From assembly GCA_900498245.1 (NCBI GenBank), contig LS998015.1, positions 1,247,864-1,301,214 of the forward strand: a stretch of 53,351 bases of DNA, given 5' to 3'. The DNA comes from Candidatus Zixiibacteriota bacterium. Its GTDB lineage: Bacteria > Zixibacteria > MSB-5A5 > GN15 > PGXB01. This document shows positions 7,498-26,232 of the stretch, one piece after another (position 1 is the first letter of the stretch; the number at the start of each line of letters is the position of its first letter). Under the pieces are notes generated by a model. The model saw only the letters and a list, made by a program, of their open reading frames with translations, had not been told where the DNA came from and searched no databases. The position numbers were made by a program, and so were the translations under genes.

Positions 7498-7509
7498 GGG
7501 GACAGATGT

Positions 7510-7938
7510 ATGAGCAATCAGAATGATCTCTTCAAAATAACCCTGCCTGATACCTGGAAGGACAGGACCGTGCATACTTTCATGGGCCCCGAAGACAGCG
7601 GCGTCCAGCACAATATGACGCTTGTTATCGATAAGGAAGATGAATATTTCGACCTTCAGGGATACGCCGCGGAGCGCCGGGATCAAATTCTGGAAACATT
7701 GCAGGGCGTTGACATTTTAAAGGACGAGCAAAAATCACTGGCCAACGGCACCGTCGCGTGGGAATTGGTCTATAAATGGATTCCAGTGGAAGGCACTGTA
7801 ATTTTTCAAAAGATGCTTTTTGTCCTGGTCGATAACGCGATTTACACTTTTTCCGGCAATTTTTCAAAAAAGACGATTAAGACTATCGGCGTAGAATTTG
7901 AAAAGATTGTGGAAACGTTCACCCCGATGAAAATATAG
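7510..7938 (+). CDS. DcrB/DUF1795-like T6SS chaperone (Eag-like)
   Basis: The 142-residue protein has no signal peptide and shows the DcrB/DUF1795 pattern. It opens with FKITLPDTWKDRTVHTFMGP, has a central QGYAAERRDQILETL helix, and then alternating strands ending in FEKIVETFTPMK. In T6SS loci this family includes the Eag chaperones, which hold the hydrophobic segments of PAAR- or membrane-type effectors until they are loaded on the spike. That fits the neighbour two genes downstream, which encodes a large protein with several hydrophobic segments. The gene starts 12 bases after the lipoprotein stop. Family assignment is good; the exact client is inferred. Confidence 0.82.
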   Translation: MSNQNDLFKITLPDTWKDRTVHTFMGPEDSGVQHNMTLVIDKEDEYFDLQGYAAERRDQILETLQGVDILKDEQKSLANGTVAWELVYKWIPVEGTVIFQKMLFVLVDNAIYTFSGNFSKKTIKTIGVEFEKIVETFTPMKI

Positions 7939-7951
7939 CCGATGAGCAATT

Positions 7952-8839
7952 ATGCCGACCAAGTTCAACAAATCCACCGATAGCGAGCATAAAGAGAAAC
8001 TGGATTCCAATCTTCTCTCGGCACTCTGGCGGACCGGAATCGCCATCGCGGGCGAGAAAGCCGAATTTGAAATTCTGACTTCATTTGTTGGACAGGGGGC
8101 CGAGGTGAAGGTGACCGGGAAATCGGAAAAAGGGAAAAAACTGGGCAAAGTCAGCGGCCAGATGAAAAACAATAAGTTTATCGGCTCCCTTGACATCCCC
8201 GACGAACTAAAACGCGATGACGCCGTTTATTTCGAAGTGGAACTTTCCAAGAACGGCATTAAGGATGAATCGAATCATATTCCGGTTCTGCCGATTAAAG
8301 TCTCCAATATGAAATGGAGCGCCAAGGAGGCCCGCCGCGGAGACCTTCTCAAACTGACGGCCGACGTGAAAGGGTGCTACGACGGGACGGAAGTAGTCAT
8401 CACCATTTACCAATTCGACCGGGACAATATTCATGATAAGATTGTCGAAATTCCCGCTGAGATCAGTAAGGAAAAGCTGGAACTTCTCTGGGAATTTCAA
8501 TTTTATGAAGATACCGGCGAAATCCCGACCGATGATGAGATGAAAAATTATGGCGGGAAATACAGTAACCCCGAATATTTTTTCACCATAAAAATCGCCG
8601 GTGTTGAATTTGGGAAGAAACAGGAATCGGGGCTTCTAACATTCAAAGATTCCTTTGAAACCCAATTGGTTGATCGGGACGGTCAGCCGATTCCCGATCG
8701 CGATTACGAACTTACACTGCCGGACGGCACCAAACAGAAAGGCAAGACGGACAAAGAGGGGAAGATCTTCCTGAAAGATGTTCCTCCCGGCAATATAACC
8801 ATTGAATTTCCGGAACCGCCGGAAAACGCCAGTCAATAG
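7952..8839 (+). CDS. Spike-extension paralogue, Ig/transthyretin-like adaptor
   Basis: This 295-residue protein lacks PAAR repeats and a signal peptide, but its C-terminal two thirds parallel the extension of the PAAR protein at 1702-2763. Shared features are a W-S-A-K segment followed by GD.LKL.A.., a LLWEFQF/AQWELQL strand, the YSNPEYFFTIKIAGV/YSSPTFYYIVKTAGV stretch, and a final D.DG.P....Y.L.LP.G..K.G...PPGN module. The protein seems built of three beta-sandwich domains. Lying between an Eag-like chaperone and a large membrane-active protein, it may be an adaptor that joins that cargo to the spike. This is an inference from paralogy and position. The first 100 residues match nothing I recognise. 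Confidence 0.7.
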   Translation: MPTKFNKSTDSEHKEKLDSNLLSALWRTGIAIAGEKAEFEILTSFVGQGAEVKVTGKSEKGKKLGKVSGQMKNNKFIGSLDIPDELKRDDAVYFEVELSKNGIKDESNHIPVLPIKVSNMKWSAKEARRGDLLKLTADVKGCYDGTEVVITIYQFDRDNIHDKIVEIPAEISKEKLELLWEFQFYEDTGEIPTDDEMKNYGGKYSNPEYFFTIKIAGVEFGKKQESGLLTFKDSFETQLVDRDGQPIPDRDYELTLPDGTKQKGKTDKEGKIFLKDVPPGNITIEFPEPPENASQ

Positions 8840-8852
8840 GTGCAGGACCATA

Positions 8853-11332: not shown

Positions 11333-12787
11333 ATGGATATTGCCAGTTATTCATCGGATTCACGGGCTGTCATTAAGAATGCCCGCGAAGTCGCGGCGAC
11401 TTTTCGCCATCCGGAAATCGATATCGAACATCTCCTGATTGCGACTATCCGGAGCGAGAGTTCCGGAATTGAGAATATTCTCAACCAATTGAAGAAAAAT
11501 CCGTCGATAATCGAATCGATGGTCGAGGAGTATATCAAGGAACAACCGCGCAAAACAACCGCGCGCGACAACTTGACAATTTCTCCGGCGGTCCAGGACA
11601 CTCTCAATCAGGCCATTGAGGAAAAGACCAAACTATATGACGCCCTGATTGAGCCGGAGCATATCTTCATCGCCATTTTTGACCCCAAATCAAAATTGGC
11701 GCCGTACCTGCGCGACAAGATTGACATAACCAAAGAAGATATTTATCGCGCCATTGCCGAGAGCAAATCGGTACAGGAAATTGCCTCGAAAGTCACTCCA
11801 TCCGCCGAGGGCGAGGCCGAAGGGGTGAAAGAAGTTGCCGGGACCCTCAAATATTGCATCGATATGACCAATCAAGCGGCCGCCGGTGAATTTGACCCGA
11901 TGATCGGTCGGGAAAAAGAACTCCAGCAGGTCATTCAAATATTACTTCGCCGCCGCAAGAACAGCCCCGTATTAGTTGGCGGGGCAGGCGTAGGTAAATC
12001 GGCCATTGTCGAGGGATTTGCCCAGGCTGTGACGGCCGGAAAGATTCCCAAGGCTCTCGAAGGGGTCAAGGTTATGTCAGTCGACATGGGTTCTCTTGTC
12101 GCCGGGGCTAAATATAAGGGTGAATTCGAAGAGAGATTTAAAGGTTTGGTCGGGGAGGTCGTGAAATCAGGCGGAAAGATAATTTTGTTTATCGATGAGA
12201 TTCATACTATCGCTGGTGGGGGCGCTTCCGGCGGCGGGATGGATGCTGCTAACCTGATCAAACCGGCCCTCGCCAGGGGTCAAATTCGGCTGATTGGTGC
12301 GACGACGGAAGAGGAGTATATTAAATATCTCGAAAAGGATAAGGCCCTGGATCGCCGGTTTGAACGGGTCCGGGTGGAAAAACCGAATTTCGACGAGGCC
12401 GTCAGGATTGTCAAGGGTGTCGTATCGAAGTACGAAACTCATCATAAGATCAAATATACTGAGGCGGCCATAGTCGGATCGGTGAAATTCTCCCAGCGAT
12501 ATTTGAGCGAACGAAATTTGCCGGATATTGCCTTGGACATTATTGATGAAGCCGCTTCGGAATTCAGTGTCAAGGAAGAATTCGGTACTACCGAAATCCC
12601 GGCCCTCTCAAAACAGATGACGGAAATTGAAAAGATGATCGCCGCTTGCGAAGGGAAGAGCCCTGATAAAAACAAAGAGGATTTTGACAAACTATATTCG
12701 GAATACGGCGAATTTACAAGAAGATTCGAGCGACTGTGGGGCTTCTGGGGGCACCGCATAGAGACGGTGGAAGGAGGGAAGAAATAA
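11333..12787 (+). CDS. tssH: ClpV/ClpB-type AAA+ unfoldase, N-terminal half (N domain and D1)
   Basis: This 484-residue protein carries a Clp_N repeat domain (about 1-150) and a complete first AAA+ module. It shows Walker A GGAGVGKS at 216-223, Walker B LFIDEIHT with Asp288/Glu289, and an arginine-finger region (DRRFERVRVEKP). The chain ends shortly after D1, within what would be the start of the middle domain, where full-length ClpV and ClpB (about 850-900 residues) continue into D2. In T6SS, ClpV disassembles contracted TssB/TssC sheath for reuse. The stop codon overlaps the next ATG (TAATG), and a strong AAGGAGGG lies within its last codons, so the second half is translated by coupling. 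No Shine-Dalgarno is visible before its own ATG. Confidence 0.92.
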   Translation: MDIASYSSDSRAVIKNAREVAATFRHPEIDIEHLLIATIRSESSGIENILNQLKKNPSIIESMVEEYIKEQPRKTTARDNLTISPAVQDTLNQAIEEKTKLYDALIEPEHIFIAIFDPKSKLAPYLRDKIDITKEDIYRAIAESKSVQEIASKVTPSAEGEAEGVKEVAGTLKYCIDMTNQAAAGEFDPMIGREKELQQVIQILLRRRKNSPVLVGGAGVGKSAIVEGFAQAVTAGKIPKALEGVKVMSVDMGSLVAGAKYKGEFEERFKGLVGEVVKSGGKIILFIDEIHTIAGGGASGGGMDAANLIKPALARGQIRLIGATTEEEYIKYLEKDKALDRRFERVRVEKPNFDEAVRIVKGVVSKYETHHKIKYTEAAIVGSVKFSQRYLSERNLPDIALDIIDEAASEFSVKEEFGTTEIPALSKQMTEIEKMIAACEGKSPDKNKEDFDKLYSEYGEFTRRFERLWGFWGHRIETVEGGKK

Positions 12788-13890
12788 TGGCGGCCAAGAA
12801 GATGACACTTGAGGATTTAAAAAAGGATTTCGCCGAAAAGAGCCGCACCTTTTCCGCTCTAAAAAATGTCGCGGAACATCTGGAGCGGAATATAGATGAT
12901 TCCGATGTAGCCGCGGTGGTGGCGCGACGCACCGGAATCCCGCTTTCAAAAATGCTGACCGCGGAAAAGGATCGTCTGGTCAATATGGAGGCGTTCCTCT
13001 CAAAGAAAATAGTCGGTCAGGAAAAGGCCATACAGGCCATCGCCAATGCCGTCAGAAAGGCGCGCGCCGGCTTGAAACTCCCCAATCGGCCGGTCGGTTC
13101 TTTTCTGTTCCTCGGGCCCACTGGCACCGGCAAAACCTACCTGCCCAAACTTCTGGCGGAATTTCTATTCGATGATAAAAACGCCATGGTTCGCCTCGAT
13201 ATGTCGGAGTTCATGGAATCACATTCGGTCGCCAAAATGATCGGGGCGCCTCCCGGTTATGTCGGCTATGAGGCCGGCGGCCTTCTGACCGAAGCGGTCC
13301 GAAAAAAACCTTTTTCGATCGTACTTTTTGATGAAACGGAAAAGGCCCATCCTGATGTTTTTAATGTTCTGCTGCAATTGCTCGATGATGGACGCTTGAC
13401 GGACGGACAGGGGAGAACCGTGGATTTTGCCAACACCGTTGTTGTCCTGACCTCCAATTACGCCGCCGACAAAATCCTTGATGCCGACCGCGAGGGGCGT
13501 GAAGTTGATATGGATGAGGTTCGATCCTTCCTCTTTTCCAAGTTCCGCCCGGAGTTCTTGAATCGCCTGAATGATATAATCATATATCACTCTTTCACTC
13601 AGACCCAGATTGAAATAATCGCCGGTCTGGAATTCGACAATGTCAATGCTCTCCTGAGAGAACAAGATATTGCGGCCACTCTGTCGCCGGAAGCCAAACA
13701 CAAACTGGCAGTCGACGGCTATACTTTTGAACTCGGCGCCCGGCCGATTCAGCGTATAATAGAAAAGGAAATTATAAATAAGATATCGGTTGACATCATA
13801 ACGGGAATAATATCGCCCGGCGATGAAATTTCCATTGATGTCAAGGACGACAACTTTGTTTTTACGAAAAAAGCGAAATCCAATAATTGA
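12787..13890 (+). CDS. tssH: ClpV/ClpB-type AAA+ unfoldase, C-terminal half (D2)
   Basis: The 367-residue product starts at ATG 12787, chosen because AAGGAGGG lies about ten bases upstream; the in-frame GTG at 12736 has no such site. It begins with a short coiled-coil-like stretch and the ARRTGIPLSKM linker typical of the join between middle domain and D2. It then has a full second AAA+ module: Walker A GPTGTGKT at 110-117, the pore-loop GYVGYE, Walker B VLFDETEKAHP (Asp182/Glu183), sensor VVLTSN, and the D2-small domain (FELGARPIQRIIEKEI). With the upstream gene it makes up one ClpV in two subunits. The reading frame differs from the first half by one base, but the dedicated start signals argue for real gene fission and not an error. 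Confidence 0.92.
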   Translation: MAAKKMTLEDLKKDFAEKSRTFSALKNVAEHLERNIDDSDVAAVVARRTGIPLSKMLTAEKDRLVNMEAFLSKKIVGQEKAIQAIANAVRKARAGLKLPNRPVGSFLFLGPTGTGKTYLPKLLAEFLFDDKNAMVRLDMSEFMESHSVAKMIGAPPGYVGYEAGGLLTEAVRKKPFSIVLFDETEKAHPDVFNVLLQLLDDGRLTDGQGRTVDFANTVVVLTSNYAADKILDADREGREVDMDEVRSFLFSKFRPEFLNRLNDIIIYHSFTQTQIEIIAGLEFDNVNALLREQDIAATLSPEAKHKLAVDGYTFELGARPIQRIIEKEIINKISVDIITGIISPGDEISIDVKDDNFVFTKKAKSNN

Positions 13891-13906: not shown

Positions 13907-14347
13907 ATGGCAAAATTTATTCTTGGTGCTTCTGAGAGAATCCAGAAGGATGATTCTATCCCGGTCGAACTTCTGCCGTCCAATAAGATCCTCTATGCGG
14001 CAAAACTCAATAATGACCAGGATGCCGACGTAATGCCGGTCAAATGCACCAACATGAAAGAAGTCTTCGAGAAGTTCCGGCCCGCATTTGCCGCGGAACT
14101 GGAATCGCCCGAGGGACAGCAGGTCAACGCCAATTTCGAAGTCACGTCCATGAAGGACTTCACCCCCAAGGAACTGATCGAGAAAAACGATCATCTCTCG
14201 TCGGTTTATTACGGCAAAGAAATGCTCGATGACCTGGAGAAGCAGTTAAAGAAAAACAACGCCCTTAAAAAGACGGTTGAGGACAAGGAAAAGAAAGAGG
14301 CTCTTCTTAAGGTGATGCGTTACTATATCGACCTTTTGAGCGAATAG
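13907..14347 (+). CDS. tssB: T6SS sheath small subunit TssB (VipA-like)
   Basis: At 146 residues this is slightly shorter than most TssB proteins (about 160-180). It has the recognisable layout: N-terminal strands ending in SIPVELLPSNK, then VNANFEVTSMKDFTPKELIEKNDHLSSV, where TssB proteins contact TssC, and a long C-terminal helix rich in Lys/Glu. TssB and TssC interleave to form the contractile sheath in the cytoplasm. The helix contacted by ClpV in other systems is normally in TssC. The gene has GGAGG five bases before ATG and sits between the clpV pair and tssC, a standard T6SS arrangement. Confidence 0.9.
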   Translation: MAKFILGASERIQKDDSIPVELLPSNKILYAAKLNNDQDADVMPVKCTNMKEVFEKFRPAFAAELESPEGQQVNANFEVTSMKDFTPKELIEKNDHLSSVYYGKEMLDDLEKQLKKNNALKKTVEDKEKKEALLKVMRYYIDLLSE

Positions 14348-14363
14348 AAAAGAGGTGAGTCTA

Positions 14364-15785
14364 ATGGGTGAAGAAGAGAAAAAAGAAGTCCAGCCTCAGG
14401 AAGCCGCCGAGGCCCGGCCGGCCATGGAGGCCGAAAAGGTATCCGATTCCGAGTTTGCCTCACTGATGGGGGCCAATTTCGGCGATTTCAGCAAACTGGC
14501 CGCCCTCCTGCCGTCATTCAAAACGGTCGATGGTGATCTGGTGCGCGGTGTTGAATGGCTCGATCCGAAGAAGGATTTTCAACGCAAGGAATTTCTTACA
14601 AAAAAGGATTTTGCCAAACAGAGAAAACTTCTGGCGCAACGTCTGAAAATGTGGCACGACCATCTCGCCAAGGCGGGTTCGCCCGACGATATCAGGAAAA
14701 CATTGAGCGAGGAATCGGCCAAACTCCAGACCAATCTGGAAAAAAACATGAAAAGAGTGTTCGAATCCAGCCGTGATCTGGAAACGACCTACCGCGCCAT
14801 TGACAAATTTTTCGCCAACGCGCAGCAGGAGCCGGACGAGAAAGTAAATGCCTATTTTGCCAATGTTTCGGCAGAAGAGCTCTCCAATCCGGATGACAAA
14901 GAAAAATTCGAAAACCTCTGCAAAGCGATCGCTGATCTTTACCGGGAATGGAGCATCAAGGAATGTTTTGCGATGTGCGTGGTTCCGGGTTATCTGGGGA
15001 GTGTCGAAAACATCGATACTTTCGCCCGTCAGTTGGGATTCCCCAACAAGGTCCATATCCTGACCGATCTTCCCAATTTTGAGAAATTTGAGGAAGTGAT
15101 GGACATGCTGGATGATCCCAATTATGCCAACCTGATGGGGATTGACAATTTCAAGCAGTATGTTTCGGTCTTTGCCAACTATGTTCTGGCCCGTAACTCC
15201 AATCAGTATGAAGATCAGGATATGTGGATTCCGCCCTCGGCGGCGGTAGCGGGGAAAATGTATCAGGGAGACCTTACGGTAGGTATGCAGCAGCCGATGG
15301 CCGGCTTCAAGTTCGGCAAGATAAACGATGCCAAGTACCTCCGCTTCAAAGCCAATCAGCCGGACGCCAGCAAGATCAACGAAAAGGGCGTCAATCCGCT
15401 GGTCAATTTCGAAGGCACGGCGGTGGCCATGGGTGCGGCGACGCTATTTTCCAAGGAAACCTTCAATGTCTATTCGATTCGCCGGACCTATGATTATGTT
15501 TATAAGACCATGCGCAACTATCTGAATAAGCAGACCTTCACGGTGATCGATCAGAAATTCATCGACACCATGCGGAAAGATATCGATAAGTTCATGAAGG
15601 CCATTACCGGCGGCGATAATATCCTGCAGGATTACAAGGTGGACATTTTTGCCGACGAGGAAATGAGGAAACGGCAGGAGGTCGATGTCAAAATAAGTCT
15701 GAATCCCAAGTATCCGGCGCGCTCCTTCAATATCGAATTTGTGGCCTGGAACGAAGGCAGTCAGACCAATGTCAAGGACAAATAA
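14364..15785 (+). CDS. tssC: T6SS sheath large subunit TssC (VipB-like)
   Basis: I use ATG 14364 (473 residues) with AGAGGTG at 14351-14357; an upstream GTG at 14355 is part of that ribosome site. The protein contains the TssC core: MGIDNFKQYVSVFANYVLARNSNQYEDQDMW-type text in the middle, an aromatic/glycine segment with FKFGKI, and a C-terminal domain ending in RSFNIEFVAWNEG. Together with TssB it forms the contractile tube around the Hcp tail in the cytosol. Length and order match the family. The first 40 residues are acidic and low in complexity (EEKKEVQPQEA...), which may be the flexible N-terminus through which ClpV extracts the sheath. Confidence 0.93.
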   Translation: MGEEEKKEVQPQEAAEARPAMEAEKVSDSEFASLMGANFGDFSKLAALLPSFKTVDGDLVRGVEWLDPKKDFQRKEFLTKKDFAKQRKLLAQRLKMWHDHLAKAGSPDDIRKTLSEESAKLQTNLEKNMKRVFESSRDLETTYRAIDKFFANAQQEPDEKVNAYFANVSAEELSNPDDKEKFENLCKAIADLYREWSIKECFAMCVVPGYLGSVENIDTFARQLGFPNKVHILTDLPNFEKFEEVMDMLDDPNYANLMGIDNFKQYVSVFANYVLARNSNQYEDQDMWIPPSAAVAGKMYQGDLTVGMQQPMAGFKFGKINDAKYLRFKANQPDASKINEKGVNPLVNFEGTAVAMGAATLFSKETFNVYSIRRTYDYVYKTMRNYLNKQTFTVIDQKFIDTMRKDIDKFMKAITGGDNILQDYKVDIFADEEMRKRQEVDVKISLNPKYPARSFNIEFVAWNEGSQTNVKDK

Positions 15786-15837
15786 AGAAGTTGCAATAGG
15801 ATGATTAAAACCAGATTAAATCAGAGGAGAATCTGTT

Positions 15838-16242
15838 ATGGCACGCAGACCAATTCTTGAGATTGACGGTGTCGTCTACAAGAACGTATATGAAGTAGGG
15901 TACGAGCTGTACACGTCCAAGGATGAAACCGGCCGTCCCTCGGATCGAGCCCATGCGGGTGTCATCAAAATTACCCGTGAATCGGATGAGAATGCCAATA
16001 TCGCGCGCTGGGCGATGGATTCCAGCAAACCGAATTGGAAAGCCGGAAAAGTGACCTTCAAGAATCCCGATGATGCCACCATGAAAGAATTATCGTGGGA
16101 AGAGGGTTTCATAACCCGTTACGAAGAACATATTCCGCACGTCAAATTGCGTCCGGATGATCAGGTTTTTGAATATTTCGAAATCTCCTGCCATAAATTA
16201 TCTATCGGCGACGCCGAAATCGATAACCGCTGGCAGGAATAG
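15838..16242 (+). CDS. tssD: T6SS tube protein TssD (Hcp), Bacteroidetes-like short form
   Basis: The 134-residue product is the inner-tube subunit that stacks as hexameric rings and is propelled out with the spike. It resembles the short TssD proteins described for Bacteroidetes T6SSiii: opening ILEIDGVVYKNVYEVGYELY, DETGRPSD followed by GVIKITRESDENANIARW, and closing ISCHKLSIGDAEIDNRW. Proteobacterial Hcp proteins are longer (about 160-170). A strong GAGGAG precedes the ATG, consistent with high expression. Right after the stop comes an 11-pair hairpin that separates it from vgrG. Confidence 0.9.
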   Translation: MARRPILEIDGVVYKNVYEVGYELYTSKDETGRPSDRAHAGVIKITRESDENANIARWAMDSSKPNWKAGKVTFKNPDDATMKELSWEEGFITRYEEHIPHVKLRPDDQVFEYFEISCHKLSIGDAEIDNRWQE

Positions 16243-16254
16243 TTCCATTAATTT

Positions 16255-16286
16255 GCCGGGCGGGACATTACCCGCTCCCGCCCGGC
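16255..16286 (+). terminator. Perfect 11-pair hairpin between tssD and vgrG
   Basis: GCCGGGCGGGA (16255-16265) and TCCCGCCCGGC (16276-16286) are exact reverse complements around a 10-base loop. Only a short weak T-rich stretch follows (TTAATTGTCTTG), so it should be a partial terminator, or a 3'-end stabiliser of tssD mRNA, and not a full stop. Either action would raise Hcp output relative to VgrG. Confidence 0.7.
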
Positions 16287-16308
16287 TTAATTGTCTTGTC
16301 CGAGGAAT

Positions 16309-18033
16309 ATGGAAATACAGGGAAAAGCAGGTTCAAAGGAAAGGGCCGAATTGGAAACCGCGGCTATTTGCACGGTTCGTATCGATAACAAGGAAATCAA
16401 GCAGACCCTTTCATCGATTCAGCTGGATCAATATATCGACAGACATCATATGTTGCAGGTTCGGATCAAGCAGGTGGGCACGGCGCAGAGCGGTCAGGAT
16501 TTTGACGATCCCGCCGATTACACCGCGTTTCTCGGAAAATCGATCTCATTGAATGTCAAACCGACCGGCGGCATGGTCGATTCCTCCCGCGAACTGGAAT
16601 TTATCGGAATTGTCACTCAGGTAAGTCTCGACAACAGCATCGACGGTCTTAATACGGTTCTTATAACCTCGCACAGTCCGACCATAGGTCTGGATAATTC
16701 AAAGAAAAACGCTTTTTTCTTTGACCAGTCGGCCAGTGATATCATCGGCTCCACCCTGCGGAATCATCCCATTACCCTTGGCAATGTCGATTCCAGCAAA
16801 GGGGTTTCCAAATTTACGGTTCAGTACCGCGAGAGCGATTATGATTTCGTGAGACGGTTGGCATTTCATTACGGAAAATTTGCCTTTTACGACGGCAAGG
16901 AATTTTGTGTTGTCAAGGCCTCCGGTTCCGGAGCCGAGGAATTGACCTGGCGCGAAACGCTCGGTTCATTTTCCTTCGGACTGGGAACCGCCGATCCGGA
17001 ATTTACATCGTCCGCCTATAACTACGAACAAAGCAAAATTTTTACCCAGGATTCCAAATCCCTTCCGGCCCAATCATCATTGCCCGCCATGCTTAAGACC
17101 TCGCCCGATGCCTCGAAAAATATTTTCAAAAATTCAGGATTCACGGTCTCTTCGCGCTTCATCCCCGATGCTCAGAGTCTCGACGAAATACTCCAGGTCG
17201 AAAAGAACGGCAGTCTGGGGAAAATGATTCAATGTCAGGGGTATTCCATCGTTCCCAAAGTCGCCGTGGGCCACAGTGTGAAAATCAAGGGAATGTCGAA
17301 ACTCGACGGTACTTTCTGGGTGAATTCTGTCAGGCATATTTTCAACGAAAGCGGCAAATATCACAATACTTTTATCTGCACCCCGGTCGATACCGCCTTC
17401 CCCTCGACGCGATTTAATTTGCAGCCCTTTACCGATTTGCAGTCGGCAGTGGTCGTCGATAATGACGATCCGGAAAAACTGGGACGTATCAAAGTTAAAT
17501 TCCCCTGGATCCAGGATAGTACTATCTGGGTCCGCTATCTCAGTTTCAATGCCAGCCAGACCGGAGGATGGTATTCCCTGCCTGAAATCGATGATATTGT
17601 TCTGGTTGGATTCGAGATGGGGAATCCGGAAATGCCGGTCGCTCTCGGCTCTCTTTATGACAAAAACAATCCGCCCGATTCCAAAGCGGTCGATTCCAAG
17701 AACGATATTCGCCAATTTTTGACCAAGGGCGGCAGTCTGATTCAAATCAAAGATACATCGGGGAGCGAAGAAATCAAAATTTCGATGAAGGACGGTAAAA
17801 ACAGCATCGTCATGCAGACTTCGGGCCCGAGCATCACTATTGAAAGCCAAAACGGCGATATCAGCATCAAAGGAAAGAGTGTCACGATAAATTCCGATCA
17901 GAACATTGAAATTAAAGCCGGCGGAGATCTTAAGGCGGAAGGAAGCGCCAATTTGAAGCTTAAGGGCGGCATGCAATCCGACCTTGAAGGCAATATGGTC
18001 AATGTCAAAGGATCGATGATAAAACTTAATTAA
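16309..18033 (+). CDS. vgrG: T6SS spike protein VgrG (TssI)
   Basis: This 574-residue protein has the gp27/gp5 layout of VgrG. Residues 1 to about 380 form the gp27-like hub (SIQLDQYIDRHHMLQVRIKQ, YRESDYDFVRRLAFHYGKFAFYDG). An OB-fold with DPEKLGRIKVKFPW, WVRY and GFEMGNPEMPVALGSLYD follows. The C-terminus is a triple-stranded beta-helix needle of short repeats (DISIKGKSVTINSDQNIEIKAGGDLK). No extra toxin domain is attached, so cargo must ride on PAAR or adaptor proteins. I choose ATG 16309; its GAGGA is only two bases away, which is tight. A TTG at 16291 is the alternative start. The trimer should sit on the baseplate and carry the PAAR tip. Confidence 0.93.
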   Translation: MEIQGKAGSKERAELETAAICTVRIDNKEIKQTLSSIQLDQYIDRHHMLQVRIKQVGTAQSGQDFDDPADYTAFLGKSISLNVKPTGGMVDSSRELEFIGIVTQVSLDNSIDGLNTVLITSHSPTIGLDNSKKNAFFFDQSASDIIGSTLRNHPITLGNVDSSKGVSKFTVQYRESDYDFVRRLAFHYGKFAFYDGKEFCVVKASGSGAEELTWRETLGSFSFGLGTADPEFTSSAYNYEQSKIFTQDSKSLPAQSSLPAMLKTSPDASKNIFKNSGFTVSSRFIPDAQSLDEILQVEKNGSLGKMIQCQGYSIVPKVAVGHSVKIKGMSKLDGTFWVNSVRHIFNESGKYHNTFICTPVDTAFPSTRFNLQPFTDLQSAVVVDNDDPEKLGRIKVKFPWIQDSTIWVRYLSFNASQTGGWYSLPEIDDIVLVGFEMGNPEMPVALGSLYDKNNPPDSKAVDSKNDIRQFLTKGGSLIQIKDTSGSEEIKISMKDGKNSIVMQTSGPSITIESQNGDISIKGKSVTINSDQNIEIKAGGDLKAEGSANLKLKGGMQSDLEGNMVNVKGSMIKLN

Positions 18034-18040
18034 TGCAACC

Positions 18041-18421
18041 ATGGAATACCTGGCGCTACCATTTGTTCTGAGAGAAGGTTATTTGAGCAAGGCGACTCTG
18101 GAAGAGTCGCTGACCTATTCGATCGGCCTGATACTCAGCACCCGTCTGGGATCATTGCCCTTCGATCCCGAATACGGCTGCGATATCTGGGATAAGGAAT
18201 ATTCGGATTTATATACGGCTAACAAGGCGGAAATACGCGCCAGTCTGCGTAACGCCATCGACCGCTCCGAAAAGCGTCTTTATAATTTATCGGTTTCGTT
18301 CGTTAGTGCCGCGGAGTCTCAGGGGGCGCGTCAAATTCTGGGCATGGCGGTCAAGGTGACCGGCAATTTCAGGGAGGATTCCGAAGAAAAAAAATATGAA
18401 GGAACCTTCTATTTAGGTTAG
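18041..18421 (+). CDS. tssE: T6SS baseplate wedge protein TssE (gp25-like)
   Basis: The 126-residue product fits the GPW/gp25 family: an N-terminal SLTYSIGLILSTRLGSLPFDPEYGCDIWD, which contains the conserved glycine/proline turn, followed by IRASLRNAIDRSEKRL and a beta-rich C-terminus. In phages and T6SS, gp25/TssE forms the inner wedge ring that holds the sheath's first disc. The EPR-type signature normally seen in proteobacterial TssE is not present in that exact form; the sequence is closer to the FCB/phage branch. It begins seven bases after vgrG and precedes tssF by 16 bases, inside the same transcript. Confidence 0.85.
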   Translation: MEYLALPFVLREGYLSKATLEESLTYSIGLILSTRLGSLPFDPEYGCDIWDKEYSDLYTANKAEIRASLRNAIDRSEKRLYNLSVSFVSAAESQGARQILGMAVKVTGNFREDSEEKKYEGTFYLG

Positions 18422-18437
18422 GCTTAAAAGAGATAAT

Positions 18438-20108
18438 ATGGAAATAAAAGCGACCCCTTCCCGTTCCCCGGAGAAAATATTCGCTGATATGCATCGCGAA
18501 CTTCGGGCCTGGAATCAGCAGGTGCCGGAATCCCCGGAACGTCTCGACCCGATCCTTAAAATTCTGATGCGGCTTTATGCCCATCAATTGTCACTCATTG
18601 ATAAGCGGATCGACTCGGTTTGGGAAATGGCCGCCAATTCCCTCATACGGGCCGTTTGCCCCGAAAGCAAGCGCTGGCCGGTACCTTCCTTTACCGTGAT
18701 GCGTTGCCAGCCGGGGGATCCGGTGGTCGAAGTTGACCCTCATCTGCGATTCTTTTACAAGGAAAAGCGTGAAGGCGGACAAACCTTCTTTTTTTCCCCT
18801 CTCCGCAAGGAGCGGCTGATTGCCGCCCGGATCAAACATATCTATCTGACGGCGGGGAGCACCGTAATGGATCTCTCTCCAAATCCCGAGAGTACCGGCT
18901 ATTCGAGACAGCCGCTTTCTTTCCCTGCCACTGATCCCGGGAAAATATTTATCGGGGTGGAGTATGAGGGCATTCCCTCCGATCTGGCCGGCGCCGTCCT
19001 TTTCATCAAAGGCGCCGTCGAAGTGCTCAAGCAACTGCGCTGGGGGCATTGGCGCGCGGCCGATTCGTCGGGCAATTTTTTGGAGGAATCCCGCTTTTGC
19101 CCCGGGCTGATCGACAGCCTTTCGGACATTTTGTCGATTGATGGGCGCCGCATCGATTGGGGCGGGCTTCGAACGAGCCGAGATTTATTTAAGACGCTGG
19201 AAGACAATTTTATCCTCTTGCCCCGAAACTTCTCGACCGGATGGGCGGCCGGACCGATCGATAAGGAACTGGCGGAAAAAATGTTCACGGCCGGTATCAA
19301 TCCCCCTCCCGCCGGCGAAAAAGTCTATTGGCTCCGTATTGACCTGCCGCGCGGCGGTGATAAGACCAAATTGCAGTCATCGTTCGAAATCCATTTCAAT
19401 TGCTTTATTGCGATTAATAAAAACGAATTGACGCTGTTCAAGCATACCGGGGGAAATCGTCTGGTGGAAGTGGAACTGCCCGAAGATATCGCCAACATTC
19501 TCGAAATCGCGCGGGTGGTAGATTCCGGCGGGCGCGAATACGTCCCTCGCTTTACGGTACAGACCAGCCGGGCCCAGAAGGCATATTCCCTCGAAGAACG
19601 CAATAATAAGATTGTTCTCTGGTTCGACTTTTCCTCCGACATAGAGCTTCCGCCTGATTCCATTTCCGTGAATTATTCTATTACGGCCGGGGTAAGCGGC
19701 AACGGTATCGAAGCGGCCAAAATAAATGAATTGTATGAGGCTCATCCGGGCATCGTCGCGATCGAAAACATCGTTCCCACGGGCGGAGCGGTCCCGGCCA
19801 AGACGGAGAAGCAGATTGTCAACGAGGTATCGGCGCGTCTTCGCAATCGCGACCGGGCCATGAACTTCGCCGAAATCTCCAATTGGGCCATGACTTTCGA
19901 TCCGCGCATTTTGTCGGCGGAATGCCGCAACGGGATCGAGCGGGCCGCCCGCGGTGTCAGGCGATGCATTGAAGTTATTATCAGAGTCAAAAAGGATGGC
20001 TTTTATTCCGACGAGGAAACGGATTTGCTGGAGCGGCGCCTCAATAGTTTCCTGAAATCCCGCTCGCCGATTAATACTCATTTTAAAATTGAGATTGTAA
20101 AGCAATGA
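18438..20108 (+). CDS. tssF: T6SS baseplate protein TssF
   Basis: The 556-residue protein matches the length and tone of TssF/VasA. It has a helical start with ERLDPILKILMRLYAHQLSLIDKRIDSV, the typical AVCPESKRWPVPSFTVM(R) patch in which acidic/Pro residues lead into a beta domain, a central strand-rich region with LPEDIANIL, and a C-terminal gp6-like end (VSARLRNRDRAMNFAEISNWAMTFDPRI). TssF with TssG forms the wedge of the baseplate around VgrG. It overlaps tssG by four bases (ATGA), so the two are translationally coupled, in keeping with their fixed stoichiometry in the complex. Confidence 0.88.
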   Translation: MEIKATPSRSPEKIFADMHRELRAWNQQVPESPERLDPILKILMRLYAHQLSLIDKRIDSVWEMAANSLIRAVCPESKRWPVPSFTVMRCQPGDPVVEVDPHLRFFYKEKREGGQTFFFSPLRKERLIAARIKHIYLTAGSTVMDLSPNPESTGYSRQPLSFPATDPGKIFIGVEYEGIPSDLAGAVLFIKGAVEVLKQLRWGHWRAADSSGNFLEESRFCPGLIDSLSDILSIDGRRIDWGGLRTSRDLFKTLEDNFILLPRNFSTGWAAGPIDKELAEKMFTAGINPPPAGEKVYWLRIDLPRGGDKTKLQSSFEIHFNCFIAINKNELTLFKHTGGNRLVEVELPEDIANILEIARVVDSGGREYVPRFTVQTSRAQKAYSLEERNNKIVLWFDFSSDIELPPDSISVNYSITAGVSGNGIEAAKINELYEAHPGIVAIENIVPTGGAVPAKTEKQIVNEVSARLRNRDRAMNFAEISNWAMTFDPRILSAECRNGIERAARGVRRCIEVIIRVKKDGFYSDEETDLLERRLNSFLKSRSPINTHFKIEIVKQ

Positions 20109-21010
20109 ACCAGCCCTTAATGCCGGACCTCTGCAATCGGCGTTACCCCTTCCATTATACCACCGCTCTCTGTCTGTTGATAAAATTGGGCATTGATATT
20201 TCTCAAATCGAAATCCTTGCCATAGGCGAATTCGAAAACTATAAAGGCGAAATTTTGTGGCAGGAGCCTGCTCCGGGAGCGGTTCTCACTGCCGACGCCA
20301 GAATACGTCTTAAAGTCGGTTACCCGAGCGCCATTGATTTTATGCCGTATCAGTTTTTTTACGGCTTGGCGGGAAGCGAGCGCCACTCTGCATCGTGGGA
20401 AGAACAGGCCCGGGAAATACTGGCCCCTTTCGATTCATCGGTAATTCGTCACAATGCCGCGGCCGAATATCATACCCTTAAATTTAACCTCGGACTCGTT
20501 GACCGGAAACAACTATCCGACTTTCTACAACTCTTCAATTTTGAACTCTCCGCTGAATCAGACGAAGATCAGAAGGCGCTCATCTGGACCACGCTCATGC
20601 CGTTCTTTCACTTTTGGGCGGGCAACGGCGGACTGACGGAGAAGGCCTTGGAATTGATCTTCGGTTACGAATTTGACATCATTGAAAATACTTTCGGGCA
20701 ATTTGTAATTCCCGAAGAAATTCGCTACATTCTCGGTTCACCGTCGGGGAGACTGGGTCGTGAAACCGTCCTTGGCAATCGATTTCATGATTACGATTCG
20801 AACTATGAAATAATAATAAAGGGAATTTCTTCGGAAGAGGTTCGAAATTTCCTCCCGGGCGGACTTAACCGAAAACGGCTTGATGCTATTCTCAGATTCT
20901 GTATGCCCAATCATCTTGATTACCGGCTGAAGTTTGAAGTTAAAAATAAAAATACGATTATCGGCAGGGAAAACCGGGCCGCATATCTTGGATATGCCGC
21001 TCATATTTAA
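20105..21010 (+). CDS. tssG: T6SS baseplate protein TssG
   Basis: At 301 residues and directly coupled to tssF, this is the expected TssG position and size. Sequence features are modest: an N-terminal helical domain (RRYPFHYTTALCLLIKLGIDISQI), a central RQLSDFLQLF-like helix, then ITFGYEFDI, a strand with a Gly-rich loop, and a C-terminal RKRLDAILRFCMPNHLDYRL with an alpha/beta character. In T6SS two TssF and one TssG make each wedge. Assignment rests mainly on synteny plus general similarity to FCB-type TssG; it is less certain than for tssF. Confidence 0.78.
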   Translation: MNQPLMPDLCNRRYPFHYTTALCLLIKLGIDISQIEILAIGEFENYKGEILWQEPAPGAVLTADARIRLKVGYPSAIDFMPYQFFYGLAGSERHSASWEEQAREILAPFDSSVIRHNAAAEYHTLKFNLGLVDRKQLSDFLQLFNFELSAESDEDQKALIWTTLMPFFHFWAGNGGLTEKALELIFGYEFDIIENTFGQFVIPEEIRYILGSPSGRLGRETVLGNRFHDYDSNYEIIIKGISSEEVRNFLPGGLNRKRLDAILRFCMPNHLDYRLKFEVKNKNTIIGRENRAAYLGYAAHI

Positions 21011-21070: not shown

Positions 21071-22519
21071 ATGAGTGACTTGAACTTATATTCGGTGAAC
21101 TGGCAGGACGGGATGCTTATAACCCGTCAGCATTTAAAAGATCAGGAAAAGTACTTCGAGGATCTGATACGCTGGCACCATCTCGATGTCGGCGACCGTT
21201 ATGGATTGGTGAAAAAATCATTCGACGGCAAAGCGGCTCTCGCCCTGAACAGTCTGGTCAGCGGGAATCGGCTCCGCGTCGAGATGCTTCGATGCCAGGC
21301 CGTCACCCCCGATGGTACATATATTAATATTCAGGAATCCGGACAGAATCCGGTCCGGGCCGATTTTTCCATCAGTGGAGCGGCCGTCCCGGTCTTTATA
21401 AGTGTTGATGCTTCCGGAAAACAACCGGTCGGCGATCCCGATCCGGGCGAAGACCTGCCCCGGGTGCCCTATATGGTGAATGGTTACGCCATTCATTTGG
21501 GTGCTCCCCCGAATTTGCCGGACGGATCATTTCTTCAAGTGGCCGAATTGCTCATAAATGGCAGCGAGGTTAAACCCTCGCCGAATTACTTTCCGCCCTG
21601 TTTAAGTGTCGGGGCCGATGAACAGCTGGCGGCCAAGGTTTCCGACTTTCGCAACCGCCTTGAAAACCTCCTCTCGCTGTCGTCACGCGCCTATATGGCG
21701 GTCTCGGCCACCGGAGCTCTGGCGGGGGAGAGCACTAATTTGCAGGTCGCTTTCAAGGAGACGACATACTTATTGGTATATCATTTGGCCGCCACCATCG
21801 ATGACTTCGTGGTCGGTCGCAACGCCATTCATCCTATGCACCTGGTGATTCAGTTCAAGAAATTGTTCCGCATTTTCTCGACCTTGATGAATCTTCAACC
21901 CGGTTTGAAAGACTATTTGAACGAAAAATTTTTCAGCAAAGAACTCAATTCCGAAATCGGCCGTTTTATGGCCGCCGTCGATAATTTCATTCTGGCCGAA
22001 TATAATCACCGTCAACTCGGCGGGCACATTCAGGCCATCGATAATCTCCTCAATATCCTGCGGGGAGCGATCGGATTTTTGGCCCAGACCAAGCGTGAGC
22101 AGTTGGGCGAGCAGGCCGTGGCCACCGACAGTCTGACATATCAGGGGCGTACCTATCGCGTTTCGCCGTTCAGTTCGACCCGATTGGAGCAAATCGGGGA
22201 ATTGAGTTATTTGATGGTCGATGTCGCCTCCCCTCGCGCCGTAGCCGACTCGGTCGTCTTGATGTCGAAGGATCTTTTCAGTGTGGCCGAATGGAACAAT
22301 ATGCAGGTTCGCCTCGGGCTGAATGACGCCCGGGGGCTCGGGGAAACCGATCCGGTCGATGTCGATGTCACAACCTTCGGTAACAAGGTAGCCTTGCATC
22401 CCCGTGATATGATGCGCTCCTCGGCAGTTCGCCAGATTACCCTTATCTTCCGCGGAGCGCGGGATAACACCAAGTTTCAGAATTTGGGAAAAATGGATTT
22501 GATAATTTACACCATGTAA
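21071..22519 (+). CDS. tssK: T6SS baseplate connector TssK
   Basis: The 482-residue product opens with VNWQDGMLITRQHLKDQEKYFEDLIRW, a hallmark of TssK, which starts with a (V/I).W.eGm.l..qHfq motif. The middle holds a shoulder/beta domain (VFISVDASGKQPVGDPDPGED) and a helical neck (YLLVYHLAATIDDF). The C-terminus is the receptor-binding-like domain (RQITLIFRGARDN), which binds the membrane complex. TssK bridges baseplate wedges to the TssL/TssM cytoplasmic domains. It is followed within 20 bases by a tail-anchored protein gene, so its partner here is probably that non-canonical membrane complex. Confidence 0.9.
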   Translation: MSDLNLYSVNWQDGMLITRQHLKDQEKYFEDLIRWHHLDVGDRYGLVKKSFDGKAALALNSLVSGNRLRVEMLRCQAVTPDGTYINIQESGQNPVRADFSISGAAVPVFISVDASGKQPVGDPDPGEDLPRVPYMVNGYAIHLGAPPNLPDGSFLQVAELLINGSEVKPSPNYFPPCLSVGADEQLAAKVSDFRNRLENLLSLSSRAYMAVSATGALAGESTNLQVAFKETTYLLVYHLAATIDDFVVGRNAIHPMHLVIQFKKLFRIFSTLMNLQPGLKDYLNEKFFSKELNSEIGRFMAAVDNFILAEYNHRQLGGHIQAIDNLLNILRGAIGFLAQTKREQLGEQAVATDSLTYQGRTYRVSPFSSTRLEQIGELSYLMVDVASPRAVADSVVLMSKDLFSVAEWNNMQVRLGLNDARGLGETDPVDVDVTTFGNKVALHPRDMMRSSAVRQITLIFRGARDNTKFQNLGKMDLIIYTM

Positions 22520-22538: not shown

Positions 22539-23462
22539 ATGGAAATAAAAACATATATTGAAGATCTCTTTAAGTACCTTGAATCGTTCGAGAAAGGCGC
22601 TGTCGAATTTGAGACCGAGGCCTTTTTGCAGACGTACAACGGTATCTATGCGGTCTTTCAGGCTCTCCGCCAGCAACGCAACGAGGCGGTCGATGTGGAT
22701 CAATATTTTTTAAGTCGCATCGAGAGAACACCCCTCAACAGCTCCGATCTCCGCCAGTTATCCATACAGATAATGATAACATATTTCGAGTCGGAGGCCG
22801 ATACCGACGGTCAGTCGAATCAATCCTATCTTTACTGCCGGGGACTGAGGGCCGTCAAACAGGACATTCCCTTTTTTGAGCAACACCTCATTCCTTTGCT
22901 TTTCAAAGAAGGGGCCCTGGGAAGTAATTTCCGTCTGCATCAATTCTTCCTCAATGAAATCGGCCGTTATATGGGAAAATTCGGGAAAAAGGTGATCCCG
23001 AACTTGAACCCGGAAGAATTCGGTGCCCTCAATGACAGCATGAAAATCCTGGAATTGATCCGGCGCCGTCTGGAAATGGGCAATGAATTGCTCAAGGATC
23101 GCACCAGTCTTGAATTTCATCTGCAGCGGATCAATGCCTTTACGAAATTGGGGCAGAAGAGCAAACTATATGAACGTTATTTGACAGAATGGCAATATCT
23201 CCGCAAGACAAGTTTCTGGGCCGCGGTCAAAAGATTTCTTTCCGAATTGGGCGGGAAATTCCGCGGCGCCTTTTCGTCTTCGCGTTACTTCCGGCTCGTT
23301 ATGACACAGCGGACACCGGCCTACTTTTACTATTTCTTTCTTATTGTCCTCTTCATTTTCCTGGCCATTTATGTACCGATGAAATGGAGCAGTTATTCCA
23401 GGAATAAATTGAATGAATTAAATAATCGCGCCACGGCGGTACAGTCCGGGACCTTGAGGTGA
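22539..23462 (+). CDS. Tail-anchored T6SS membrane-complex protein, TssL-like by topology
   Basis: The 307-residue protein has a helical cytoplasmic part (about 1-260) and one hydrophobic segment near the C-terminus (about 268-288, YYFFLIVLFIFLAIYVPMKW), leaving a tail of about 20 residues outside. This is the architecture of TssL/DotU, and the order tssK-this gene-GTPase gene copies tssK-tssL-tssM. I do not find the usual DotU sequence signature, so the label rests on topology and place. Many helices are amphipathic (LRQLSIQIMITYFESEA, LNDSMKILELIRRRLEMG). Whether it is a diverged TssL or an unrelated replacement cannot be settled by eye. Confidence 0.55.
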   Translation: MEIKTYIEDLFKYLESFEKGAVEFETEAFLQTYNGIYAVFQALRQQRNEAVDVDQYFLSRIERTPLNSSDLRQLSIQIMITYFESEADTDGQSNQSYLYCRGLRAVKQDIPFFEQHLIPLLFKEGALGSNFRLHQFFLNEIGRYMGKFGKKVIPNLNPEEFGALNDSMKILELIRRRLEMGNELLKDRTSLEFHLQRINAFTKLGQKSKLYERYLTEWQYLRKTSFWAAVKRFLSELGGKFRGAFSSSRYFRLVMTQRTPAYFYYFFLIVLFIFLAIYVPMKWSSYSRNKLNELNNRATAVQSGTLR

Positions 23463-23473: not shown

Positions 23474-25678
23474 ATGAGTTTGGGAAAAGTATTTAATATT
23501 TTCAAAAAGGGTGCCAAAGGGGCTTCCGGTCAAAAAGGCAAAAAAGGCGGCGGAATCGAATGGCCCCCGGGGCTGCGGATCGGCGTCTATGGGCACGCCA
23601 ATTCAGGCAAGACCGTTTATTTAACCGTTTTGAATGAAGAGTGCAAAATTGCCAAGGATCTTCAAATTTCGGTTATCGATAACGCCACGGCCGGGGAATT
23701 CCTTTCCAATTACAGAATGATCTGGGGTCTGGCCAGCGGGGCCTCTTCAGGCGGCGGTACCGTGGTCGATATGCGCGGGGAAAAGAAATTTCCCGAATCG
23801 ACCATCTCCGACAAGATTCTCAAGTTCAATGCCATTCTCGACCATAAGAAACGGGTTTCGGTGGTTACCTATGATTACAGCGGACGGTCCGTCTCCATCC
23901 GGGAACGGACCGAGCAGACCGACAAGGTTATTGACTTCATGTCCGGCTGTCATGGGTTGATGTTCTTCTATGACCCCAAGACACTGGCGGCGGAACTCCA
24001 AAGTCAGGAACATGTTGCCTCATTCGTAAGCATGATCGAACGTCTGGCGCCTCTCAATAAAAGCCGCCTGCCAATCCCAATTGCTCTGGTCATCACGAAA
24101 TCCGACATCCTGCCGGGTTTCAAAGGGGAAGATCAGGTCGTTTTGATCCGGGCGGAAGATGAGAGTTTCGTTTCCGAGGACTTTGAATTATTTCTGGATA
24201 AAATCCTGACCAGTAATAACATTGCCTCCAATTCCGCATGGGCGGGTACGGTTCGGGAGATACTTATTAAATTGAAGGATTTTCTGAAAGTGGTCACCGG
24301 GCGCACTCTTGACTTTCAGATTTTCTTCACCTCCAACACCGGTGAGGCCCCCGATAAGATTGGCACCGATATCGGCCGTTCCCTTTATGCGCCGCCGGCG
24401 AAAATCAGACCGGTCGGCATCCGGGAGCCGTTTTACTGGATATTGAAATCCATTATGCGGAGCCGCAAAATCTCACGGATGCGGACGGTGGCCCGCTTCG
24501 TCACTCTCATAAGTATTATCTGGATCATTTTGTACTCGTTGCCGAATCTCTATCATTTCAAATTCCTCCTGTCCGGTGCCTATAGAACCGAAAGCAGCAT
24601 ACTCCAGGCCTATAAGGGCAATATTTATAATACCTCGGTCGAAGAGAGGCGGAAAATTGTCCGTGCCTACGATGACTATTCCCGCTCCTGGACCGTAAAG
24701 TGGCTATTTCAGCCTTTTCAGGCTCCGGCGGAACGAATTAAAAACAGTTATTCTTCGCTGAATGTGGAAGCGGCCGCGTCCAATCTTAATCAGGTTATAA
24801 AGAATTTTACCGCCATTGTTTCCGACACGTCGGCATGGCCCAAAGTCAATCCTTCCGATTCGCAATTAATAGAAAACGAGCGCCACCAAAAACTCGTGGA
24901 AGATCTCAATGGTTTCCACCAGGGCGATGAGACTTCGATACTGTATAAACGCAGCGATCGCGCCCTGCGTCTCTGGGACATGTTTAAAAGGGCCGTGGCC
25001 GCGCCCAATGATACGACCGTCTGGGTCACTATTCAGAAACAGGTGCAATTGGACAAGGATATGTATGGCAATCAAATGAGCGCCGAGGAAGTTGACCTTG
25101 GGAAGGCCCTGTCGAAATATAAAGCCAAGCAGATTCAAATCGTTACCGCTCAGAAGGCCGCCGCCGAACTGACCGGTTTGATACAGGAAATAAACGGCAA
25201 TCCCAACGGCGCGTTCCGTCTGGACACCGCCGTCACCATTTTGAAACAAACCCTGGCCAACCTCGACCCGGCAGTCGACAAAAACAATATCGCCATGATA
25301 AACCGCTATCTGCAGGCGGTCGCGAGATGGAACAAAACCCAGAAATATACCGCGAAAATCGAGGTTCTTCCGGAAAAGGCCCATCTCCATATCGAAATCA
25401 CTGAAAATGGAAAGGCCCCTCTCTGGGAGAAACATACGCAGATATTCGAAGGCGATGAGGTCCCGATATTCTGGAAAGTGGGCGACAATATCAATATCGC
25501 CATCGACCTCAAAAAGCAGAAGTGCAAGTGGGGAAAAGAATCCAGCGATCGTGTCATATTGAAAGACAAATATGCATTGTTTCAAATGGACGGAGAAGTA
25601 ACGTTTGATAATATAGGCAAGAAAGCCGGTATCAGTTTCAAACCGCCGCTGGTGGATCTGCTGCCGGTTTTGAAATAG
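23474..25678 (+). CDS. Membrane-anchored TRAFAC-like GTPase in the TssM position
   Basis: This 734-residue product begins with a GTPase domain: P-loop GHANSGKT (40-47) with hydrophobic strand before it, a switch-2-like TYDYSGRSV, and a G4 motif TKSD at 208-211. The style is that of the TRAFAC-type GTPases found fused to other modules. A single membrane segment follows (about 337-358), then about 375 residues, mostly helical with a beta-rich end, that should lie in the periplasm. Canonical TssM/IcmF is about 1100-1200 residues with an N-terminal membrane hairpin before its NTPase domain; both are absent here. It is the last large gene of the machine, 11 bases after the TssL-like gene. Confidence 0.7.
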   Translation: MSLGKVFNIFKKGAKGASGQKGKKGGGIEWPPGLRIGVYGHANSGKTVYLTVLNEECKIAKDLQISVIDNATAGEFLSNYRMIWGLASGASSGGGTVVDMRGEKKFPESTISDKILKFNAILDHKKRVSVVTYDYSGRSVSIRERTEQTDKVIDFMSGCHGLMFFYDPKTLAAELQSQEHVASFVSMIERLAPLNKSRLPIPIALVITKSDILPGFKGEDQVVLIRAEDESFVSEDFELFLDKILTSNNIASNSAWAGTVREILIKLKDFLKVVTGRTLDFQIFFTSNTGEAPDKIGTDIGRSLYAPPAKIRPVGIREPFYWILKSIMRSRKISRMRTVARFVTLISIIWIILYSLPNLYHFKFLLSGAYRTESSILQAYKGNIYNTSVEERRKIVRAYDDYSRSWTVKWLFQPFQAPAERIKNSYSSLNVEAAASNLNQVIKNFTAIVSDTSAWPKVNPSDSQLIENERHQKLVEDLNGFHQGDETSILYKRSDRALRLWDMFKRAVAAPNDTTVWVTIQKQVQLDKDMYGNQMSAEEVDLGKALSKYKAKQIQIVTAQKAAAELTGLIQEINGNPNGAFRLDTAVTILKQTLANLDPAVDKNNIAMINRYLQAVARWNKTQKYTAKIEVLPEKAHLHIEITENGKAPLWEKHTQIFEGDEVPIFWKVGDNINIAIDLKKQKCKWGKESSDRVILKDKYALFQMDGEVTFDNIGKKAGISFKPPLVDLLPVLK

Positions 25679-25707: not shown

Positions 25708-26232
25708 ATGAATTATCATACATACAAGCGATCCATATTTGCGGCACTTTTGGGAATTATATTTGTTCTCTGCTTATCGGGACCGGTCCGGGCGGGCCGT
25801 GTCCTTCTCCCCGATAGTCTTGAAATTAAAGTAAAATTTGATTCCACGATGCAAATCACATCGGGGAAATTAGTCAAAGGCGCCCCGGTCGCCATTTATT
25901 TGGCCGAACCGATTGAAATCGGCGGGGTGACCATTGTCGAGCAGGGTGCCCCCGGTACGGCCGTGGTATCCGAGGTAAAAAAGGCGGGCGGCGGGGGAAA
26001 ACCGGGCCTGATTAAAATTGATTTTACCGAGTTGGAGCCCAAAGGCGAATATATGACCGAGGACAGTGCCAAAATTAAAATCTTCGGATCGGTGGAAAGC
26101 AAAGGCAAGAAAAAGGGTATTTTCCCGTACCTGTTTTTTATCCTGCTGGTAAAAGGCGGTGAGGGTCAGATCAAAGTCGATTCCGTTTATTCCGCTACGA
26201 CGGCCGAATCGATTATGCTGTCAAATGACTGA
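25708..26232 (+). CDS. Secreted protein of unknown function closing the T6SS locus
   Basis: ATG 25708 is chosen because GGAAGGAG lies five bases upstream, giving 174 residues. A signal peptide ends at about residue 29 (VRA-G). The body resembles small periplasmic proteins with a repeated beta pattern: KGAPVAIYLAEPIEIGGVTIVEQGAPGTAVVSEVKKAG, then GLIKIDFTELEP. There is also a hydrophobic stretch near residue 130 (IFPYLFFILLV). There is no lipobox cysteine, so it is not an obvious TssJ lipoprotein, though it occupies a position where an outer-envelope partner of the membrane complex might be encoded. Function is unknown. Confidence 0.6.
   Translation: MNYHTYKRSIFAALLGIIFVLCLSGPVRAGRVLLPDSLEIKVKFDSTMQITSGKLVKGAPVAIYLAEPIEIGGVTIVEQGAPGTAVVSEVKKAGGGGKPGLIKIDFTELEPKGEYMTEDSAKIKIFGSVESKGKKKGIFPYLFFILLVKGGEGQIKVDSVYSATTAESIMLSND

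Follow-up and report, generated by a model that had tools for sequence, protein, structure and literature searches.

A membrane-bound GTPase in place of TssM is judged to mark a new variant of the T6SS membrane anchor. The protein is encoded in the window (the whole 53,351-nucleotide stretch of Candidatus Zixiibacteriota DNA that was analysed), within a T6SS gene cluster of a genome in which profile searches found neither TssJ, TssL or TssM nor any PF06761 domain. Quite probably it forms the core, at the inner membrane, of a T6SS membrane complex built without these three proteins. The features of the operon are listed in Table 1.

Table 1. Features of the T6SS operon in the window, followed by GAP1-N2-like genes of distant lineages (positions of the latter are those of the respective loci)
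Feature	Position	Strand	Basis
ClpV as two genes	11333..13890	+	ORFs, conserved in relatives; identity read from sequence
TssB, TssC (PF17541), Hcp/TssD (PF17642), VgrG, TssE, TssF-like, TssG	13907..21010	+	profile matches, except VgrG and TssF-like (position and sequence by eye); order conserved in relatives
TssK (baseplate), upstream neighbour	21071..22519	+	PF05936 / TIGR03353
OrfL, 307 aa, all-helical cytoplasmic protein, C-terminal TM 261-279	22539..23462	+	model pLDDT 87
Membrane-anchored DO-GTPase2-type protein, 734 aa, TssM position	23474..25678	+	ORF; PF19993 2e-7; model pLDDT 84
Predicted cytoplasmic G domain, residues 34-306	23573..24391	+	AF2 secondary structure; Foldseek GTPases, probability 1.0
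G1/P-loop GHANSGKT, residues 40-47	23591..23614	+	G40 and K46 invariant in 53 homologues
G3/switch-2 DYSG, residues 134-137	23873..23884	+	D134 and G137 invariant
G4 TKSD, residues 208-211, then ILPGF	24095..24106	+	K209 and D211 invariant
G5-like SNTG, residues 287-290	24332..24343	+	F284, F285 and G290 invariant; S287 nearly so
Single transmembrane helix, residues about 336-354	24479..24535	+	hydropathy; within model helix 317-379
Predicted periplasmic part: helical 389-620, C-terminal beta domain 623-729	24611..25675	+	model
OrfS, about 174 aa, exported, signal peptide, candidate periplasmic partner	25708..26232	+	ORF; TM/signal prediction
GAP1-N2-like gene, L041	8458-9291		
GAP1-N2-like gene, L042	7213-8049		
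GAP1-N2-like gene, L045	8808-9617		
GAP1-N2-like gene, L046	4097-4924		
GAP1-N2-like gene, L047	8548-9363		
GAP1-N2-like gene, L049	1021-1848		

Co-occurrence and gene order

GTPase homologues are present in 65 of the 132 genomes of the same phylum (Zixibacteria), TssC (PF17541) is likewise present in 65, and 63 genomes have both. When only genomes of 90% completeness or more are counted, the GTPase and TssC sets coincide (40/40); the four mismatches all fall in genomes less than 90% complete, the locus in G095 being cut by a contig end. IcmF (PF06761) occurs in 11 of the 132 genomes and TssJ (PF12790) in five, none of them GTPase-positive. Fisher p values of 2e-32 for GTPase with TssC and 6e-4 for the exclusion of IcmF are descriptive, since the genomes share ancestry and significance is overstated. 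DotU was found in 12 of the 132 genomes, one of which (G084) has both kinds of T6SS, a classical one with TssL and TssM and a GTPase-type one, on different contigs (L109, G084:C160, and L115, G084:C208); the TssM of this genome was missed by PF06761.

In a named collection, homologues carry the labels Zixibacteria, Krumholzibacteriota, Latescibacterota and Eisenbacteria, and Candidatus Parabeggiatoa supplies two remote members. They fall into a near group, with about 40-90% full-length identity, and a far group, with about 21-30%; a profile-profile comparison joins the two groups at E 5e-83 across residues 9-729.

The T6SS genes of the window form a run on one strand, from tssK (ending at 22519) through OrfL (22539-23462) and the GTPase gene (from 23474) to OrfS (from about 25708), with gaps of only 11-20 bases between tssK, OrfL and the GTPase gene. 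OrfL, the GTPase and OrfS are the conserved non-canonical genes of the cluster, each with a clear predicted TM or signal segment. VgrG and the TssF-like protein were assigned by position and by reading the sequence by eye, not by profile. The gene at the TssF position (18438-20108) matches no Pfam or T6SS NCBIfam model; its position is conserved and it is very divergent. The TssC and TssD families matched by the window, PF17541 and PF17642, are ones that we take to be Bacteroidota-type. ClpV is split into 484 aa and about 365 aa in the window operon and in near-group loci, and is a single 813-aa gene in the far-group loci L111 and L112.

In the classical T6SSs of sister genomes of the phylum, tssK is followed by a DotU/TssL gene of 220-273 aa and then by a TssM gene of 1106-1142 aa; the present type has tssK, then OrfL, the GTPase gene and OrfS. 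Of 44 testable loci, 38 have OrfL adjoining the GTPase gene. In the other six, either the GTPase has been relocated (L059, L091, L092), an unassigned 349-aa ORF fills the slot (L095), or the locus is one of the two from Parabeggiatoa. Relocation was seen in three genomes, to about 0.4 Mb from the T6SS cluster in G079 and about 0.6-0.7 Mb in G114 and G115. In all three the cluster still ends with tssK-OrfL and the OrfS homologue stays beside the relocated GTPase, so the GTPase-OrfS pair is retained with the T6SS even when unlinked. Since the GTPase gene is not strictly operon-bound in these genomes, there is also room for a regulatory role.

GTPase fold, family and catalytic residue

The set of GTPase motifs in the 734-aa protein is far beyond chance. 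The features of the TRAFAC class, namely a G1 of the form GxxxxGK[ST], DxxG, [NT]KxD and a G-domain fold, are all found in it. G40, K46, D134, G137, K209 and D211 are invariant in 53/53 aligned homologues, down to about 21% identity; one homologue (L083) has Ser at the position of G45. T72, invariant in both T6SS GTPase groups, may be the switch-1 Thr. The Pfam match for residues 36-214 is DO-GTPase2 (PF19993; 2e-7, 31.4 bits against a curated cut-off of 27), and a genome scan gives this protein as the sole DO-GTPase2 match of the 3.5 Mb genome.

An AF2 model built from the 53-sequence alignment (mean pLDDT 84) consists of a G domain (34-306), a long helix (317-379) that holds the TM (336-354), a series of helices (389-620) and a beta domain (623-729). 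The best Foldseek matches in the PDB include the GTPases G-alpha, SR-beta, YcjX, Arf/Rab and MglA, with a probability of 1.0 and TM-scores (target length) that reach about 0.7. A sequence search of the PDB with the GTPase profile returned short matches to P-loop GTPases, chance coiled coils and nothing else. By hydropathy the protein has one TM, C-terminal to the G domain, and a basic stretch immediately precedes it, which suggests that the N-terminus and the G domain are cytoplasmic and that the C-terminal part of ~350 aa is exported. The initial annotation had read the protein as a TRAFAC-type GTPase fused to a membrane anchor. The first part is upheld by the PF19993 match, the invariant residues and the GTPase folds found with Foldseek, and the second by the model and the single hydropathy TM; the motifs it named, GHANSGKT (40-47) and TKSD (208-211), are present, and its switch-2-like segment is DYSG (134-137).

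DO-GTPases are reported to pair with GAP1 and to conserve a glutamate of the Walker B segment, and have been proposed to act as switches (PMC7159879, eLife 2020). The residue after DxxG was taken as the position of this Glu, which the text of PMC7159879 does not spell out. In the window protein switch 2 reads DYSGR, R138 replacing the usual catalytic Gln/Glu, which makes GTP hydrolysis by this protein doubtful. Among near homologues, position 138 is K/R in 30 of 41 and E in three; of the 10 distant homologues, seven have E. Because the residue is mostly Lys/Arg, hydrolysis in the Zixibacteria of this type is probably slow or in need of a residue in trans or other external help.

The distribution of GAP1 follows that of the glutamate. 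GAP1-N2 (PF20013) has no match in the window's genome, and the near group is without GAP1. Six far-group genes directly downstream of the GTPase match GAP1-N2 at 1e-4 to 8e-4, below the cut-off (Table 1), and a genome scan with PF20013 picked out exactly these six genomes and one other. A GAP1-N2-like gene also stands in an Eisenbacteria locus (E 1.5e-13 against the far-group profile). DxxG is followed by E in all seven far-group GTPases that have a GAP1-like neighbour, and by K or S in the three that have none (L091, L092, L048). Loss of the GAP1 partner and loss of the Glu thus coincide, as would be expected if GAP1 acts on hydrolysis. A true cycling GTPase switch is more likely in the distant lineages, since they keep both the GAP1-N2-like protein and the Glu. 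The window protein, which passes the PF19993 cut-off and has neither a Glu after DxxG nor a GAP1 partner gene, is therefore called DO-GTPase2-type by domain and is not counted as a member of a DO-GTPase/GAP1 system.

In Candidatus Parabeggiatoa, two loci (L098, 8711-14789; L099, 7743-14546) each encode a related GTPase, preceded by a helical TM protein and followed by a coiled-coil protein, and are possible non-T6SS relatives of the GTPase module. Similarity of the downstream gene to GAP1 is weak and homology is not claimed. For the upstream gene, homology to OrfL is unsupported; what agrees is its position and topology.

Proposed GTPase anchor

OrfL is TssL-like in topology (helical with a C-terminal TM). 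No homology to TssL was detected, as it matches neither a DotU/TssL profile nor a solved fold in the PDB. OrfS has a signal-peptide-like N-terminus, and its homologues stand beside the GTPase in distant lineages too; no lipobox was found in the 13 homologues inspected.

In the proposed arrangement, the DO-GTPase2-type domain would lie in the cytoplasm beneath the TssK baseplate, one helix would span the inner membrane, and the helical and beta-domain tail would extend into the periplasm. OrfL would take TssL's place, and the exported OrfS would be the likely periplasmic or outer-membrane partner, linked across the periplasm to the TM and exported domain of the GTPase. Binding of GTP would set an assembly-competent conformation of the G domain, which would then dock the TssK baseplate via OrfL. 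In the Zixibacteria type, GTP may be a loading checkpoint rather than fuel. The joint anchor of OrfL, GTPase and OrfS, contact of the G domain with OrfL/TssK, the setting of docking by the GTP state and the direction of the signal are what we infer from these data; GTP control of assembly is plausible. Some points run counter to an anchor: a structural core gene is rarely found outside its cluster, yet the GTPase is in three genomes; OrfL lacks a TssL fold or profile match; and the GAP1-N2 matches lie at or below the curated cut-off.

A DO-GTPase/GAP1 switch may have been captured as the core of the T6SS membrane complex, with its GTP state licensing baseplate docking. One branch would later have lost GAP1 and the catalytic Glu together, freezing the switch as a structural GTP-binding anchor, and the classical TssM NTPase would be a sister of the same GTPase family. 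This fuller scenario is possible and is offered tentatively.

Relation to TssM and to other systems

The TssM position given to the gene in the initial annotation agrees with the tssK-tssL-tssM order of sister genomes, with the co-occurrence with TssC and with the lack of TssJ, TssL and TssM matches in the genome. The contrast it drew with an often degenerate NTPase in classical TssM is not supported. Classical TssMs of the phylum keep GxxxxGK[ST] (9/9), DTAG (8/9) and [TNS]KCDLxxGF, as TKCD, NKCD or SKCD (9/9), and GTP-specific motifs have likewise been reported for Vibrio TssMs (PMC8508121). What is new is therefore not an intact GTPase site but the architecture, the family and the exchange of the whole TssJLM set.

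The protein shares with TssM/IcmF (PF14331 + PF06761 + PF06744) the operon slot (behind tssK and a gene at the tssL position), a cytoplasmic NTPase with G1, DxxG and TKxDxxxGF, a TM after the NTPase and a large exported part. It differs in having a single TM, an exported part of about 350 aa without IcmF domains and another best family. The two TMs before the NTPase, which the same hydropathy method found in most classical TssMs of the phylum, are absent from it, and it has no IcmF-related (PF06761) or IcmF_C (PF06744) match. The GTPase lacks these defining TssM features and most likely works in TssM's place.

Descent from a TssM that lost TM1 and TM2, kept the NTPase and TM3, and had its IcmF periplasmic domains replaced or diverged is unlikely. 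The operon slot is the same, and profile comparison gives a weak, collinear alignment of G1, G3, G4, G5 and the TM, in which the G4 spacing TKxDxxxGF is common to both (TKCDLxxGF in TssM). Past G3, and only there, profile similarity to TssM sets the GTPase apart: it is weak but specific, with a score of 48.7 for the GTPase versus 31.3 for Der, 32.1 for Obg and a maximum of 22.8 in 150 shuffles. Weak matches to IcmF-related_N (PF14331) were found in 22 of the 53 homologues (best 8e-4), the window protein itself having none. When the domain is compared in full, however, Der and Obg score as high against TssM as the GTPase does, so the whole-domain similarity is not taken as special kinship, and DO-GTPase2 is a far better family (53/53 at E <= 0.1). 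The Parabeggiatoa GTPases, in whose fetched flanks no T6SS genes were recognised, are much closer than TssM to the T6SS GTPases (E 5e-18 and 9e-27). Moreover, the fold of OrfL is not TssL-like, some sisters have GAP1-N2-like partners, and TssM homology of the exported part was rejected, as the TssM periplasmic region gave no significant match to it. A TssM profile match of E 1e-22 was discarded, because the profile contained L117, itself a member of the GTPase family.

The initial annotation had named a fold matching the IcmF NTPase and periplasmic domains as evidence against its reading. This held in part: the G domain may be a distant relative of the IcmF NTPase, and the exported part has no TssM match. 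Of named families, DO-GTPase2 fits best, ahead of IcmF/TssM. The G domains of the GTPase and TssM may share a remote branch, and a co-opted DO-GTPase is favoured over a remodelled TssM. In genomes of the Parabeggiatoa family (L122-L125), IcmF-related_N domains lie inside open frames of 1560-2564 aa, which are probably not ordinary TssM.

It is still less probable that the GTPase is a regulatory accessory that licenses or represses firing, as PpkA/Fha/TagF do, the anchor being OrfL/OrfS or unrecognised genes. Such a role would suit the proposal that DO-GTPases are switches (PMC7159879), and the unlinking of the GTPase and OrfS in G114/G115 and G079 while OrfL stays with tssK. Against it, the GTPase is found in every near-complete genome with a PF17541 T6SS, its large exported domain is conserved in the full-length homology between the lineages, and no other conserved trans-envelope protein was recognised in the cluster. 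A DO-GTPase conflict (defence) module merely adjoining T6SS genes, suggested by the family and by the GAP1-N2-like neighbours in distant lineages, is highly improbable given the near-perfect co-occurrence with TssC in 132 genomes, retained when unlinked from the cluster, and the short gaps downstream of tssK-OrfL.

The anchor proposed here has a parallel in TssNQOPR, the membrane complex of the Bacteroidota T6SSiii and another T6SS without TssJLM. No GTPase is mentioned for that complex, and TssN has five TM helices versus one in the GTPase (PMC10781749). The TssN family PF17555 had no match in the 132 genomes, nor in any control genome. With the DO-GTPase2/GAP1-N2 systems, known only from genome context and previously linked solely to predicted conflict systems (PMC7159879), the present type shares the domain family, membrane association and, in distant T6SS lineages, the downstream GAP1-N2-like gene. 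It differs in its T6SS context, in being a single GTPase with no N-terminal zinc ribbon match and, in the window lineage, in lacking GAP1 and the Glu after DxxG. YcjX (DUF463) is among the closest solved folds (6nz5); we know of no TM-exported fusion and no T6SS association of YcjX. A literature search whose scope left out most subscription journals and all bioRxiv preprints returned no report linking a DO-GTPase with a T6SS and no T6SS study of Zixibacteria.

If correct, the GTPase anchor would be a further T6SS anchoring mode beside TssJLM and TssNQOPR, with three candidate membrane or exported genes only. What the TssM NTPase does is a question of long standing, and a compact single-TM GTPase, occurring in natural lineages with different catalytic residues and with or without a GAP1-like partner, would make it directly testable. 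The DO-GTPase family would gain a setting for measurements of its physical role.

Upstream of the operon, at 1702-11201, the window has a PAAR gene with an extension, followed by candidate effector genes. One (2783-6265) encodes 1160 aa with a HEMGH zinc-protease-like motif, and another (8802-11201) encodes 799 aa with three TM segments.
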